From Candidatus Synechococcus calcipolaris G9 (GTDB lineage: Bacteria > Cyanobacteriota > Cyanobacteriia > Thermosynechococcales > Thermosynechococcaceae): DNA of 64,000 nucleotides. The stretch is from NCBI RefSeq assembly GCF_029582805.1, contig NZ_JAKKUT010000002.1, forward strand, positions 248,001 through 312,000. Reading direction: 5' to 3'. Numbering within the stretch: position 1 is the first letter of the stretch; each line of letters opens with the position of its first letter. This document shows, piece by piece, positions 16,858-22,900 of this stretch. The notes under the pieces were generated by a model that searched no databases, was not told the DNA's origin, and was given only the letters and a program-made list of their open reading frames with translations. The position numbers and the translations under genes are program-made.

Positions 16858-16895
16858 GTTAGGCAGCTTGGCCTCACGTTCGCAATGGAGTCTAA

Positions 16896-18194
16896 ATGCA
16901 ATTAAGTGAAAACGACTTCAGAGATTATCTCTTTAATAACCATAAGGATTCGATTTCAGACTTAATCCATGGAAAACGTGAGCCTGTTGAGTAGAATGGT
17001 GACGGATTCCCTCCAATAAGTCTTTTGCTGCAGCAAATTGTCGAGAGAAAGATCAATGAAATAATTGATGGACTTGAGTCGTTGGTTCTCTCCGCTAAAG
17101 AGCTAAGACTCAAAAAATCTGGCGATACAACAACACGTATAGATTTATTTGGGAATTCTGAATATATTGGACTTGCGATAATCGAGCTTAAAAAGTCGGG
17201 GCAAACTGAGAGACAAGCATTTACAGAGCTTCTGGCGTATGCTAATCACTTTTGTTCCATTTTTTCTGGTCTGACCGAACACGCAATTAATACTATTTTA
17301 ATTGCTCCAATGAAAACAAGGACAGTTAGAGATGCCTTTGTCCAGGAGGTACTAGGAAATAACAAATCCTCTGTAGCTCTTATCCCATCCGATGAAGAAG
17401 GGCAAATCAAGTTAACAGTATACTACCCAGATGAGTCATATTATCAATGGTTTGAAAACAATCTTTTAGATGACAGGTCTATGTATACTGTGGCTATAGC
17501 CTTTCAGGAGTTAGACGGCTGCATAGACACCGACAAGAACAATAATCAGAGGATACCTGATTACTCTAAAGAAGCTCTAAATACTATATCAAACTCCATT
17601 TCTCATCGGCTGGGATTTGAGGGTTTTCACTCTATCGTTTATGCCACTCAGTCGTGGGGTGAGATTAGTCAAGATTTCCTTTATCCAAATGTTATATACG
17701 CTGTTTTTGTAAACCCATTTGCTTCATTTAGAAACTCTTGCTATGAGGGGCAGATTTGCGGTGAGACAAGAGAGGGTAGAGTGTATGAAATTCAGTCAGT
17801 TTATGATCAGATCGATGAATCAGAAAGACAGTTCTGGCTTGAATCTTTGGAGTCTAACTTTCATGGGCTTGCCATCAGGATAGTCAAAGAAGAATTTGAT
17901 AAATGCTTCCTAAACACTAAGAAATCGAAAGTGAAATATGAAATTTCTCTTCCAGACTGGTATGACGTCAAAACAAGCATGATTAACTCTGTTTTTACGC
18001 ACAATCTTGAGATATACCAGACGGGGCTTCTGAGAAAAATATATTCAAATTATATTGCCTATATTTACGGTGTAAGTATGGATGAAATATTCTATTCGGA
18101 TGATTTACCTATATATTCCTATTATACGTTAAGGTCATCCCTTCCTGTTTGGGAAATACTTCGGGGACTTGGTGTTGGGCATGAGCATACCTAG
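16896..18194 (+). pseudogene. PD-(D/E)XK-like nuclease gene interrupted by an in-frame TAG
   Basis: One continuous frame runs from ATG 16896 (MQLSENDFRDYLFNN...) to the stop at 18192-18194, about 432 codons. It is broken by TAG at 16992-16994 (codon 33). After the TAG the frame resumes at once as NGDGFPPISLLLQQIVERK, so a Trp (TGG) or other codon was probably lost by one base change. The 389-residue remainder could start only at TTG 17025 or later. Residues about 60-80 carry TRIDLFGN followed by IIELKKSG, the D...(E)xK arrangement of restriction-endonuclease-like nucleases, on a strand-turn-strand as expected. The rest is unassigned. The coding sequence is visibly more AT-rich than the flanking core genes. 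It may be an old defence or mobile-element nuclease. A functional shortened product cannot be excluded. Confidence 0.6.
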
Positions 18195-18275
18195 CAAAAT
18201 ACTGCAATCGGATAAATTTTTCGCTGTGCTCCAAGTTTACCTGGGAGCGCGGTGGTTGATAGATTATTCTCCCGA

Positions 18276-18689
18276 TCAAGCAAGTGTCGATGAGGGAGGG
18301 ATCAGTTTAGTGGCAGCCGCAGCCAGTTTGAGGGCGATTGCTTTCTGGTCTTCCTTTGCCATCGGCCACCCTTCAATATCGGCGTGGTTAGGGTTATCAG
18401 GAAAGGGTTGGGCTGTCACTCTCAGGGATTCTACCAGGCAATTCTTGGTCAGAATATCCGATCGGCCGTGGAGGGTTCTCTGTTGTTGAGTCGCTACATT
18501 AACCCCTGCCTGCCAAATTTCCGCTTCCGTTGCATCCCGATGGCGCGTAACGGATAGTTCTTGGTAGGGATGGGGGATGAACAGATTAGGCTTTACAGTG
18601 CGATCGCTCCGAAACAGACTACTCTGCATCACGTAGCGGGCGAGTAACTCATTTTCCTCAACCGGGGAAATATTCTCTGGATCAAGCAT
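18276..18689 (-). CDS. unknown protein, third gene of the TIGR04255 cassette
   Basis: A 137-residue soluble protein I cannot assign to a named family. The N-terminal part (ENELLARYVMQSSLFRSDRTVKPNLFIP) is charged. The middle has EIWQAGVNVATQQQRTLHGRSD and the end has the striking FPDNPNHADIEGWP followed by a helix (KEDQKAIALKLAAAATKL). I recall similar GRAD...NPNHA...GWP proteins elsewhere in bacteria beside similar neighbours, but this is memory, not a search. It starts 6 bp after the stop of the preceding gene, so the three genes are clearly one operon. No catalytic motif, signal peptide or membrane segment. The N-terminal mobile region plus compact C-terminus would suit a small partner protein. 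Confidence 0.7.
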   Translation of the reverse strand: MLDPENISPVEENELLARYVMQSSLFRSDRTVKPNLFIPHPYQELSVTRHRDATEAEIWQAGVNVATQQQRTLHGRSDILTKNCLVESLRVTAQPFPDNPNHADIEGWPMAKEDQKAIALKLAAAATKLIPPSSTLA

Positions 18690-18695
18690 GAAACC

Positions 18696-19160
18696 TTAAT
18701 TCTTGGCTAAGGCAACTTCTTGAATTAAGCTGAGAAGCCGTTTAGGAATTTCCCCTAGAAATGGCTCTGAGCCACGCGGATCGCTGTTTCCTAGAAGAGC
18801 CGCGTAATAGAGAATGCCTTCGGGACTGACGCTGACGGAGATCGTCCAATGGGGATCGCGGTACCAGTCTAGGGTTAGGTGGCCATCTGGTTCTGCCCCC
18901 ACAGAAGGTAAGGGAAACCCCAGAGGCAGTACCTGAATCACCGCATAAGCATAATTCAGAGTTGCTTCTTTTACAGGGAACGCATCATAGCCATCCCAGT
19001 TAGGGGTTCTACACTCTGCCCAAGTCCTTGCAAGCTCTTCAATTGCAGGTTGCTTGCTAAAGGCGGCGGTTTGGGAGAAGTACTGCTGATTGACTCGTCT
19101 GACTTGGTCAATATAAACAGCCGTAGAGCTAACGCCTCTGGGTAGAATGGCTGTGGTCAT
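18696..19160 (-). CDS. unknown protein, second gene of the TIGR04255 cassette
   Basis: A 154-residue protein without a family name I can give. Visible features are TPNWDGYDAFPV (residues about 53-64), a helix, PLPSVGAEPDGHLTLDWYRDP (about 84-104), then WTISVSVSPEGILYYAALLG, a run of alternating beta strands, and a final helix. The pattern N-W-D-G-Y...P-D-G-x-L-x-L-x-W...S-V-S reads as a compact beta-rich domain. Its ATG overlaps the end of the upstream TIGR04255 gene by four bases (ATGA), and six bases separate it from the next gene, so translation is coupled. No catalytic residues are obvious. Confidence 0.72.
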   Translation of the reverse strand: MTTAILPRGVSSTAVYIDQVRRVNQQYFSQTAAFSKQPAIEELARTWAECRTPNWDGYDAFPVKEATLNYAYAVIQVLPLGFPLPSVGAEPDGHLTLDWYRDPHWTISVSVSPEGILYYAALLGNSDPRGSEPFLGEIPKRLLSLIQEVALAKN

Positions 19161-19945
19161 GATGTGGCTCCAAATCGTTTGAGGGCATAGCTAGTAATGC
19201 AGCTAAAGAAGACCTTATTCTTAAGCCAGCGCATTTCTTGGAGTCCTTGGGCCAAGGTATCCTGATCTAATTTAAGCAACTCCTGAGTGAAAACGTCGAT
19301 ATCAACAATTAAGGCTCGTCCATCAGTGGGATCTGCACCAGCAGGCTGGATAGTTCTAACCCAGTTGATGGAGTAGGAGTAGCCAGGAATAGGGTAGGTG
19401 TCTTGATGAAAGAAGGACTCGGCTGTGAGTTCTACCCCTGATGGGGGAGCGGGGATGGTAGTGAGGTAATGGGATGGCTGTTCACCATCATCCAGGGGAA
19501 TGCGGTTGATGTAACGCACGCCTAGGCGTTGAATCACGGTTGGCTCAGCTAATTCCAGGAAAATATGCCAAAATCGCAGGGCTTCGGTTTGAAATCTGTC
19601 CCAGTCTTCGTAGGGTTCTAATCGGCTAAAAGCAACTCCGTTAAGGGTGAACTGTGCCACATGGCGATTCTGCTCATCTTGGAGGCGAAAACCACTCCAC
19701 TGTCTCTGCTGGAAGAACTCGGAAAAACCATCAGGTGTAGCCATTGCACCCAACTGGATATCTTGCTGAGGTTGAAGGATGGGATAGTCAGGTAAACGCT
19801 GGGTCAGTTCTGCTTGAAGAGCTTCAGGTTCCAGCTTTTTGCCCGCATGGGCCTGCCAATGAATTACCGCCTCAATACTGGGGGCAGCTTTCAGGGCAGG
19901 AAATTCCTCATTGAGGTTGAGGCTGAACTTGGGCAGCGGACTCAT
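19157..19945 (-). CDS. TIGR04255-family protein, first gene of a three-gene operon
   Basis: A 262-residue protein matching the sporadically distributed TIGR04255 family as I remember it. It has an N-terminal APSIEAVIHW strand, a middle FRLQDEQNRHVAQFTLNG then AFSRLEPYEDW segment, and RLGVRYINRI in the centre. The family has no experimentally assigned function known to me and is scattered across unrelated bacteria, often in variable regions, which suggests horizontal spread. The protein is soluble and mixed alpha/beta. The two downstream genes overlap or abut it, so all three are probably made together. The operon is divergent from the Mrp fragment, with a tnpB scrap between them. Confidence 0.8.
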   Translation of the reverse strand: MSPLPKFSLNLNEEFPALKAAPSIEAVIHWQAHAGKKLEPEALQAELTQRLPDYPILQPQQDIQLGAMATPDGFSEFFQQRQWSGFRLQDEQNRHVAQFTLNGVAFSRLEPYEDWDRFQTEALRFWHIFLELAEPTVIQRLGVRYINRIPLDDGEQPSHYLTTIPAPPSGVELTAESFFHQDTYPIPGYSYSINWVRTIQPAGADPTDGRALIVDIDVFTQELLKLDQDTLAQGLQEMRWLKNKVFFSCITSYALKRFGATS

Positions 19946-20011
19946 GGTGGCTGATTAAGGGTTCTGAGTGTGGATTATATCGGTTGGTAACTAGCTACTA
20001 CAATGTGAGAC

Positions 20012-20077
20012 ATGGAAAAAGCCTATCGTTACCACTTCTATCCCGCACCAGAACAGGACAATCTCTTTTTATGTTAA
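20012..20077 (+). mobile_element. 5' remnant of an IS200/IS605-type tnpB
   Basis: ATG 20012 begins MEKAYRYHFYPAPEQDNL and stops at TAA 20075-20077. MEKAYRYRFYP-x-x-EQ-x-x-L is the characteristic N-terminus of cyanobacterial IS605-family TnpB proteins. Identity is lost after about 18 residues, and the last codons overlap the start codon of the mrpC-like gene. The rest of tnpB, any tnpA and the element's right end are absent. The junction is therefore a deletion or rearrangement scar. Confidence 0.6.
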
Positions 20078-21931: not shown

Positions 21932-22900
21932 TAACGTGAGTTCTGGATAAGAAAGGTTGAGAGCCGTAGGCTGAAATAAGCAAACAATTCAGCAACTCCC
22001 ACCCCTATGTCTAGCTTAGAAGACCTTTTCTGCTCAGTCGATGACTTCTGCCAACGTTTTGAACCCCAATGGCAACAGCAACTTTTGCACAGTGGGCTAC
22101 AAACCCGGAAGCGGAGCCGACAACTGTGCCTGAGCGAAATCATGACGATTGTAATTGCTTTTCACCAGCAGGGCTACCGCACGTTCAAGGACTACTACAC
22201 CAAGCACGTTTGTCGCTACTGGCACAAGGCGTTCCCGGATTTGGTGAGCTATCCCCGCTTTATCAGTTGGTTGCCTTCGCTGTTATTGCCATTGTCTGCC
22301 TACCTGCGGTCTTGCTTTGGGCAATGCAGTGGGATTAGCTTCATGGACTCAACCAGCCTGAAGGTTTGCCACAATCGCCGCATCAAGCAGCACAAAGTGT
22401 TTGATTTGTTCGCCGAGCGGGGCAAGACTTCGGTGGACTGGTTCTTCGGTTTCAAACTCCATTTAGTTGTGAATGACAAAGGGGAATTGCTCAACTTTAC
22501 CCTGACTCCTGGCAACACCGATGATCGGACTCCTGTCCCCAAGCTGCTGCAACGGCTCTTCGGCAAGGTATTCGCCGACAAAGGCTACGTCTCGCAAACG
22601 TTGGCAAAACAACTCTTGCAGCAGACCGGGGTGCAGTTAATCACCAAGTTTCGGCGCAATATGAAGAATCGCTTCCTCAAGCTCAATGACCGTTTGCTGT
22701 TGCGAAAGCGAGCCATTATCGAGACCATCATCGACCAGTTAAAGAACATTTCCCAGATCGAGCACTCCCGGCATCGCTCCCCGGTTAACTTCCTGGTCAA
22801 CCTGGTTGGGGGATTAATTGCCTACTGCCACCAGCCGAAAAAGCCCTCGATTGCACTTGACTCAAACTTGCTCCCCTAGGCTTATCCGTAACTGACGTTA
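21932..22900 (+). mobile_element. IS982-family insertion sequence, apparently complete (969 bp)
   Basis: The ends carry 20-base imperfect inverted repeats. TAACGTGAGTTCTGGATAAG (21932-21951) matches the reverse complement of 22881-22900 (TAACGTCAGTTACGGATAAG) at 17 of 20 positions. A single transposase gene fills the interior. No convincing target-site duplication is visible on the flanks, so the insertion is old or one flank has been rearranged. Confidence 0.82.
22007..22879 (+). CDS. IS982-family DDE transposase
   Basis: A 290-residue transposase, the normal length for the family. The catalytic acidic triad can be read as Asp114 in FMDST, Asp191 in FADKGYVS and Glu239 in [11 protein letters not shown]. 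The N-terminal [23 protein letters not shown] motif and C-terminal [19 protein letters not shown] are standard IS982 signatures. The gene has no internal stop and both inverted repeats flank it, so it may still be active. It lies 3' of the mrpD gene and 150 bp before the HcyBio gene, on the same strand. Confidence 0.93.

Follow-up and report, generated by a model that had tools for sequence, protein, structure and literature searches.

TIGR04255 as the constant first gene of candidate three-component toxin-antitoxin modules with exchangeable partner genes

The 64,000-nucleotide stretch of Candidatus Synechococcus calcipolaris G9 DNA analysed here (the window) carries three tightly packed genes, named A, B and C in their order of reading, within a segment that appears to have been inserted between an antiporter gene and an mnhC-like gene. 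The following features lie at this place:

16858-20070, no strand assigned: insertion of about 3.2 kb that comprises the nuclease remnant, the trio and the TnpB scrap (comparison with three relatives)
17025-18194, plus strand: truncated HSDR_N-like nuclease gene, a neighbour of the trio and no part of it (Pfam, PADLOC)
18276-18689, minus strand: gene C, proposed toxin, 137 aa (conservation, AlphaFold2, a weak PDC-M32B match)
18696-19160, minus strand: gene B, proposed antitoxin, 154 aa (conservation, PDC-M32A matches of its relatives)
19157-19160, minus strand: ATGA, the 4-base stop/start overlap of A and B (sequence)
19157-19945, minus strand: gene A, TIGR04255 protein, 262 aa (NCBIfam, 141.5 bits; AlphaFold2; Foldseek)
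20012-20059, plus strand: scrap similar to the beginning of TnpB, MEKAYRYHFYPAPEQD (translation)

All three reading frames of the trio are intact, and the coordinates confirm the packing described in the original prediction, with a 4-base overlap of A and B and a gap of 6 bases from B to C on the minus strand. The motifs that it had read in the two smaller proteins are both present in the translations, NWDGY and EPDGHLTLDW in B, GRSD and NPNHADIEGWP in C. The TIGR04255 match of A, for which the NCBIfam cut-off is 30 bits, extends over model positions 2-252 of 252; B and C matched none of the NCBIfam or Pfam models. The source genome has a single A and a single C. The 4-base overlap suggests that translation of B may be coupled to that of A, and such an overlap is the usual arrangement throughout the TIGR04255 trio family.

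The insertion is flanked by a NapA-type antiporter gene on one side and by an mnhC-like gene (mnhC/mnhD-like) on the other. These are spaced by 3,213 bases in the window, and in the three relatives (L256-L258) they stand 52-78 bases apart or overlap by 20 bases, the overlap being that of L256 as counted from the longest start. The nuclease-like gene, which meets C tail to tail, matches Pfam HSDR_N at E=0.001, under the Pfam cut-off, and PADLOC PDC-S11 at E=0.0014; an in-frame stop near 16992 has cost it about its first 50 codons, and together with this early stop the gene occupies 16896-18194. Since the G+C content of the nuclease part is 38.8% and that of the trio 50.5%, the two may have come separately. 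Beyond A, the frame MEKAYRYHFYPAPEQD, which begins at 20012, is presumably the start of TnpB. The neighbours are as originally described, a nuclease gene broken by a stop and a TnpB-like scrap. About 2 kb past the trio, between mnhD and the following gene, reading by eye finds an intact-looking DDE transposase gene (22007-22879).

A contig search of genomes with the two B motifs gave 49 loci, and at 42 of them, from about a dozen phyla, A, B and C stand in the same order and on the same strand. Their sources include Cyanobacteria, Planctomycetes, Delta-, Gamma- and Alphaproteobacteria, Nitrospirae, Acidobacteria, Ignavibacteria, Bacteroidetes, Kiritimatiellales, Dehalococcoidia, WOR-3 and Schekmanbacteria. 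The recurrence of the trio in unrelated bacteria, which the original prediction had offered, is thereby borne out, and the opposite outcome that it had named, three families never co-occurring elsewhere, is contradicted by the same 42 loci. At three of the seven remaining loci (L071, L092, L099) the contig ends less than 300 bases from B. At the other four (L100, L101, L102, L104) A was not found, the upstream sequence of L101 being 216 bases only, and at L104 C is absent as well. L100 belongs to Verrucomicrobiota, a phylum in which all seven C genes found by a C search adjoin a B, and verrucomicrobial trios with A were located by a separate search. B occurs without A at a few loci, so A is not always required. 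A C homologue 60% identical to that of the window occurs in one other genome among the 291 cyanobacterial ones sampled, again behind A and B.

The view of the trio as a transferable unit is likewise supported by comparison: the insertion is missing in the relatives, and TIGR04255 trio copies also sit on plasmids, on a viral contig (IMG/VR IMGVR_UViG_3300046660_000285, A/B overlap of 4 bases) and beside genes of a CRISPR-associated transposon. In the last case, in genome G143, a sister trio is flanked on one side by a TniQ gene that nearly matches the TniQ of type V-K CAST (4e-65, ShCAST) and on the other by a fragment of TnsB (5e-94), and judged by this placement it may be cargo of a CRISPR-associated transposon:

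L043 / L014:646-1149, L003:1891-2724: CAST-linked positions of the G143 sister trio (TniQ/TnsB matches)

Read by eye, a long tape-measure-like gene is found near A and B of the viral contig, where no C was identified, and at another locus (L034) a TniQ-like start stands upstream of A. On a Planktothrix agardhii plasmid (NZ_LR882946.1, L240) a two-gene VapBC is embedded in a BREX cluster, with brxC and pglX as its neighbours, and its VapB has a tail that is also found on the B of a TIGR04255 trio. With the window proteins as queries, searches of plasmids and phages yielded little.

TIGR04255 itself is sporadic, being present in 28 of 291 cyanobacterial, 29 of 378 pseudomonadotal and 12 of 148 desulfobacterotal genomes sampled. 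We pooled 90 A genes from these three samples, two plasmids and several other genomes, and behind 83 of them B and then C follow on the same strand, a count that omits contig ends, broken copies and solitary A genes. In the gap survey of this pool the starts were picked near the -4 overlap, which inflates the number of -4 gaps; when the first start of each frame is taken, the A-B gap is -4 in 10 of 31 cyanobacterial loci. An iterated profile search sorted the C proteins into 14 clusters and the B proteins into 20, the largest B cluster being possibly chained. The biggest C clusters are the NPNHA superfamily (n=32), to which the window C belongs, and the 'TQTCD' family (n=22); DUF7689 proteins are also found as C. 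Mapped on the A tree, the class of C needs a minimum of 24 changes, where 200 shuffles gave 39-50, so A is matched to its partners and yet often re-paired. According to our analysis of gene order and similarity, TIGR04255 is the constant first gene of these putative modules, and the B/C pairs behind it are exchangeable, with C drawn from about a dozen toxin-like families. One genome (G291, locus L229) has two TIGR04255 trios of different subtypes about 3 kb apart and in opposite orientation.

What stands in the third position is recognisable in some of the sister trios. Pfam finds there PemK/MazF at two loci (L184, 1.1e-18; L211, 1.7e-13), PIN at three (L055, 6.8e-11; L060, 4.5e-6; L224, 4.2e-10), zeta (L114, 3.1e-12, in a gene that is also annotated as zeta toxin) and HEPN (L050, 4.4e-8), all of them exceeding the Pfam cut-off, as well as HicA under the cut-off (L216, 3.4e-4); the A genes in front of these toxin-domain proteins score above the TIGR04255 cut-off. 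The guess that the trio might be toxin-antitoxin-like has gained from these known toxins in third position and from one B whose tail is of the VapB antitoxin type. Of 61 C proteins compared with PADLOC, one matches RTasMBL (1.7e-17), LmuA and Avs1a; it is probably the metallo-beta-lactamase-like protein of locus L063 (3879-4961, minus strand).

In the window C, R18 and H102 are invariant among 41 relatives and S46, R49 and F37 nearly so, and its AlphaFold2 model has a pLDDT of 91.3. The model has no similar solved fold in the PDB (best E 0.27), no recognised toxin domain was found by Pfam, NCBIfam or the PDB fold search, and neither the B nor the C profile has a sequence relative in the PDB. 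We infer that it is a toxin from its position in the trio and from the toxins of the sister trios.

For B, the comparison of loci points to a division of the protein into two segments:

B residues 1 to about 45: variable, proposed A-binding segment (N-terminus replaced in loci without A)
B residues about 50-154: NWDGY/EPDGH domain, proposed neutraliser of C (invariant residues)

Among 49 homologues the invariant residues are WDG (55-57), A60, G93 and W99. Evidence on the C-terminal part comes from the PIN trio L055, whose B ends in PILPDEAFSRESIYSDHD and whose VapC has relatives of 35-46% identity in two-gene loci without A on cyanobacterial plasmids. The small genes preceding those relatives have tails such as TPILSDEAISRESIYGDRG and similar ones, to be set against the tail IPILPDEAFSRESIYSDHD of the L055 B, so this one B of a sister trio shares its tail with VapB of two-gene VapBC loci. 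Natural recombinants point the same way. Between L210 and L211 the A proteins are identical at 218 of 257 positions and the B proteins at 30 of their first 60, whereas the B tails are unrelated and so are the C proteins, a TQTCD protein in one and MazF in the other. Between L211 and L184, conversely, MazF is identical at 70 of 114 positions and the last 13 aligned positions of B at 10 of 13, with A at 68 of 233. Ten further pairs combine similar C with dissimilar A, and in nine of them the two B proteins resemble each other more over their last 40 residues than over their first 50. The recombinant alignments place a breakpoint inside B, the N-terminal part going with A and the C-terminal part with the toxin.

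Where A is missing the head of B is different. L100, with no A within 5.8 kb upstream, has a B with a differing N-terminus, and the B of L101 starts with a segment that by eye is ribbon-helix-helix-like, though this head has no Pfam match; the 216 bases upstream of it encode the end of a similar protein and not A. In trios of the L036 type B has an HTH_3-like domain (E=4e-4) alongside A. A common N-terminal motif of the ChAD-like kind across the unrelated B families is at best weak, and what the B N-termini have in common is a slight over-representation of T/S/N and of hydrophobic residues. The frame of C is broken or truncated at five window-type loci (L067, L071, L079, L098, L109), some of which may be assembly errors, and B is intact in four of these five. 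From the domain content and the exchange patterns we conclude that C is the putative toxin and B a putative two-part antitoxin.

The AlphaFold2 model of the window A (pLDDT 89.4) consists of two beta-alpha-beta4-alpha-like halves in tandem, in the manner of TBP, and Foldseek places TBP and AdoMetDC at the top with probabilities of 0.99-1.00. As the TM-scores are about 0.3, this likeness is one of topology and no proof of kinship. A viral protein, A0A515MGR4, is matched as well (TM 0.47/0.59). A SecB-like fold was considered and set aside, as Pfam gave no SecB at E<=1 and there was none among the top 50 Foldseek folds shown; a search of the PDB sequences with the A profile likewise gave no SecB at E<=1. 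Since its best matches are TBP-like folds, DNA binding by A can be argued as easily as chaperoning.

Several known systems bear on the interpretation. In PADLOC, PDC-M32A is matched by 30 of 49 B relatives (best 3.8e-9) and PDC-M32B by 4 of 41 C relatives (best 3.4e-4); of the window proteins themselves, B has no match and C matches at E=0.0034. The window-type B and C are thus distant members of the PDC-M32A/PDC-M32B pair, a candidate proposed by computation only and without TIGR04255. One paper of the searched literature has PDC-M32, as a PADLOC annotation (PMC12429752). TIGR04255 as a part of any named PADLOC system was discarded, the only matches being stray ones at E~0.005. The original prediction of an undescribed system is not entirely right, as the B-C pair is already listed as candidate PDC-M32, though without A, for which PADLOC has no model. 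It also overlooked the broader pattern in which TIGR04255 stays constant while its B-C pairs are exchanged. No paper of the searched literature, which covered neither subscription papers nor preprints, names TIGR04255.

The nearest functional parallel is that of the TAC systems (Mtb-TAC, CmdTAC; PMC5105189, PMC6377645, PMC11618068), in which the antitoxin carries an extra segment to which a dedicated SecB-like chaperone binds. Their pairing is specific and transferable and serves several toxin families (PMC5105189), and in CmdTAC a phage capsid protein draws the chaperone off and the toxin is freed (PMC11618068). Common to both are three co-transcribed genes for an antitoxin, a toxin and a dedicated third protein, a constant accessory protein that is paired with partner specificity to several unrelated antitoxin/toxin families, and an antitoxin with a transferable segment for binding the accessory protein, a segment that in TIGR04255 trios is putative. 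They differ in the accessory protein, here TIGR04255 with a TBP-like fold and no relation to SecB by sequence, in the gene order, here accessory-antitoxin-toxin, in the place of the binding segment, putatively N-terminal here and C-terminal in TAC, and in the toxins, which here include PIN, PemK/MazF, zeta, HEPN and unknown folds. Type II pairs (VapBC, MazEF/PemIK, HicAB, epsilon-zeta) share toxin domains with some trios, one of which retains a VapB-type neutralising tail on its B, but they lack the third, constant gene and the replacement of the antitoxin head by an A-linked segment. The hyperpromiscuous Panacea antitoxins (PMC8832971, PMC10440598) also join one constant domain to many toxins, with the difference that PanA is a domain within the antitoxin of two-gene systems and TIGR04255 a separate third protein; no Pfam relation of A to Panacea was found. 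We call the trio a candidate three-component toxin-antitoxin of a kind outside TAC.

We propose, at a probability of about 0.5, that the trio is a three-component toxin-antitoxin in which C would be the toxin, B its two-part antitoxin and A a dedicated partner of B. The C-terminal part of B, matched to the toxin, would neutralise C, and the variable N-terminal part would be matched to A. During the synthesis of B, coupled through the 4-base overlap, A would bind this N-terminus and keep B folded and shielded from proteases, which would make control of the toxin dependent on A. Were A titrated or lost, for instance to a viral protein competing for it, B would fail and C would arrest growth. It is because TAC is the nearest functional parallel that A is proposed as a guard of B; by this analogy A is most likely a dedicated partner of the B N-terminus resembling in its action the SecB-like chaperone of TAC. 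The sequences themselves show the constant A with exchangeable B and C, the known toxin domains at C, the VapB-type tail on one B and the breakpoint inside B; that the window C is toxic, that A acts in the manner of a chaperone and that a virus is the trigger are suggestions of ours.

A more tentative possibility is that A is no chaperone and acts as a DNA-binding repressor or co-repressor, comparable to omega in omega-epsilon-zeta or PaaR in PaaR-PaaA-ParE; equally tentative is its extension, by which A would stand in for a DNA-binding head lost from B. It is the main rival for A on account of the TBP-like fold and because B has a head of DNA-binding appearance at a locus lacking A: Foldseek likens A to tandem TBP repeats at probabilities of 0.99-1.00, A heads the operon, and L101, where no A is seen, has a ribbon-helix-helix-like B head, as if this head and A did the same job. 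However, the TM-scores of only about 0.3 weaken the first point, the HTH_3-like domain of L036-type B beside A means that a DNA-binding head is compatible with A, and the strong co-variation between A and the N-terminus of B indicates that the proteins touch, though a repressor might make such contact too.

It is rather unlikely that the trio is an anti-phage defence system with A as direct sensor, B as adaptor and C as an effector activated on sensing, with no loss of a labile antitoxin. Such a design would agree with the listing of B and C relatives as PADLOC phage-defence candidates, with the one C that matches the effector models RTasMBL (1.7e-17), LmuA and Avs1a, and with trios on a viral contig, on plasmids and beside CAST genes, but the VapB-type tail and the default-active MazF, PIN and HicA toxins suit neutralisation better than activation. 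Quite improbable is an accessory complex with a housekeeping or metabolic role, the toxin likeness of a few C proteins being due to chance; most C proteins, the window's included, do lack a characterised domain, yet five unrelated toxin families share the third position, one B has a VapB tail, and the distribution is sporadic (28/291, 29/378 and 12/148 genomes) and the module mobile. A neighbourhood that arose by chance, or an arrangement peculiar to a strain, is refuted, for all the rarity of the window type in cyanobacteria (2 of 291 genomes), by the identical order at 42 of 49 loci in about a dozen phyla.

Returning to the three-component toxin-antitoxin reading, we see an even chance that the three-component modules marked by TIGR04255, whether toxin-antitoxin or defence, form a new superfamily, in which a TBP-like universal antitoxin guardian, unrelated to SecB, would serve about a dozen toxin families, several of them new. 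The family is widespread and apparently unreported, and its modules are probably growth-arrest or anti-virus switches. If this is true, the TBP-like guardian would be a second solution to antitoxin chaperoning, and the window C and the TQTCD family would be new toxins. TIGR04255, hitherto annotated as a sporadic family only, gains a testable function, and the genes behind it in many phyla can be regarded as probable pairs of antitoxin and toxin, among them at least two large families that are toxin-like but of unknown fold or target. The natural domain swaps within B make the putative wiring of guardian, antitoxin and toxin directly testable.
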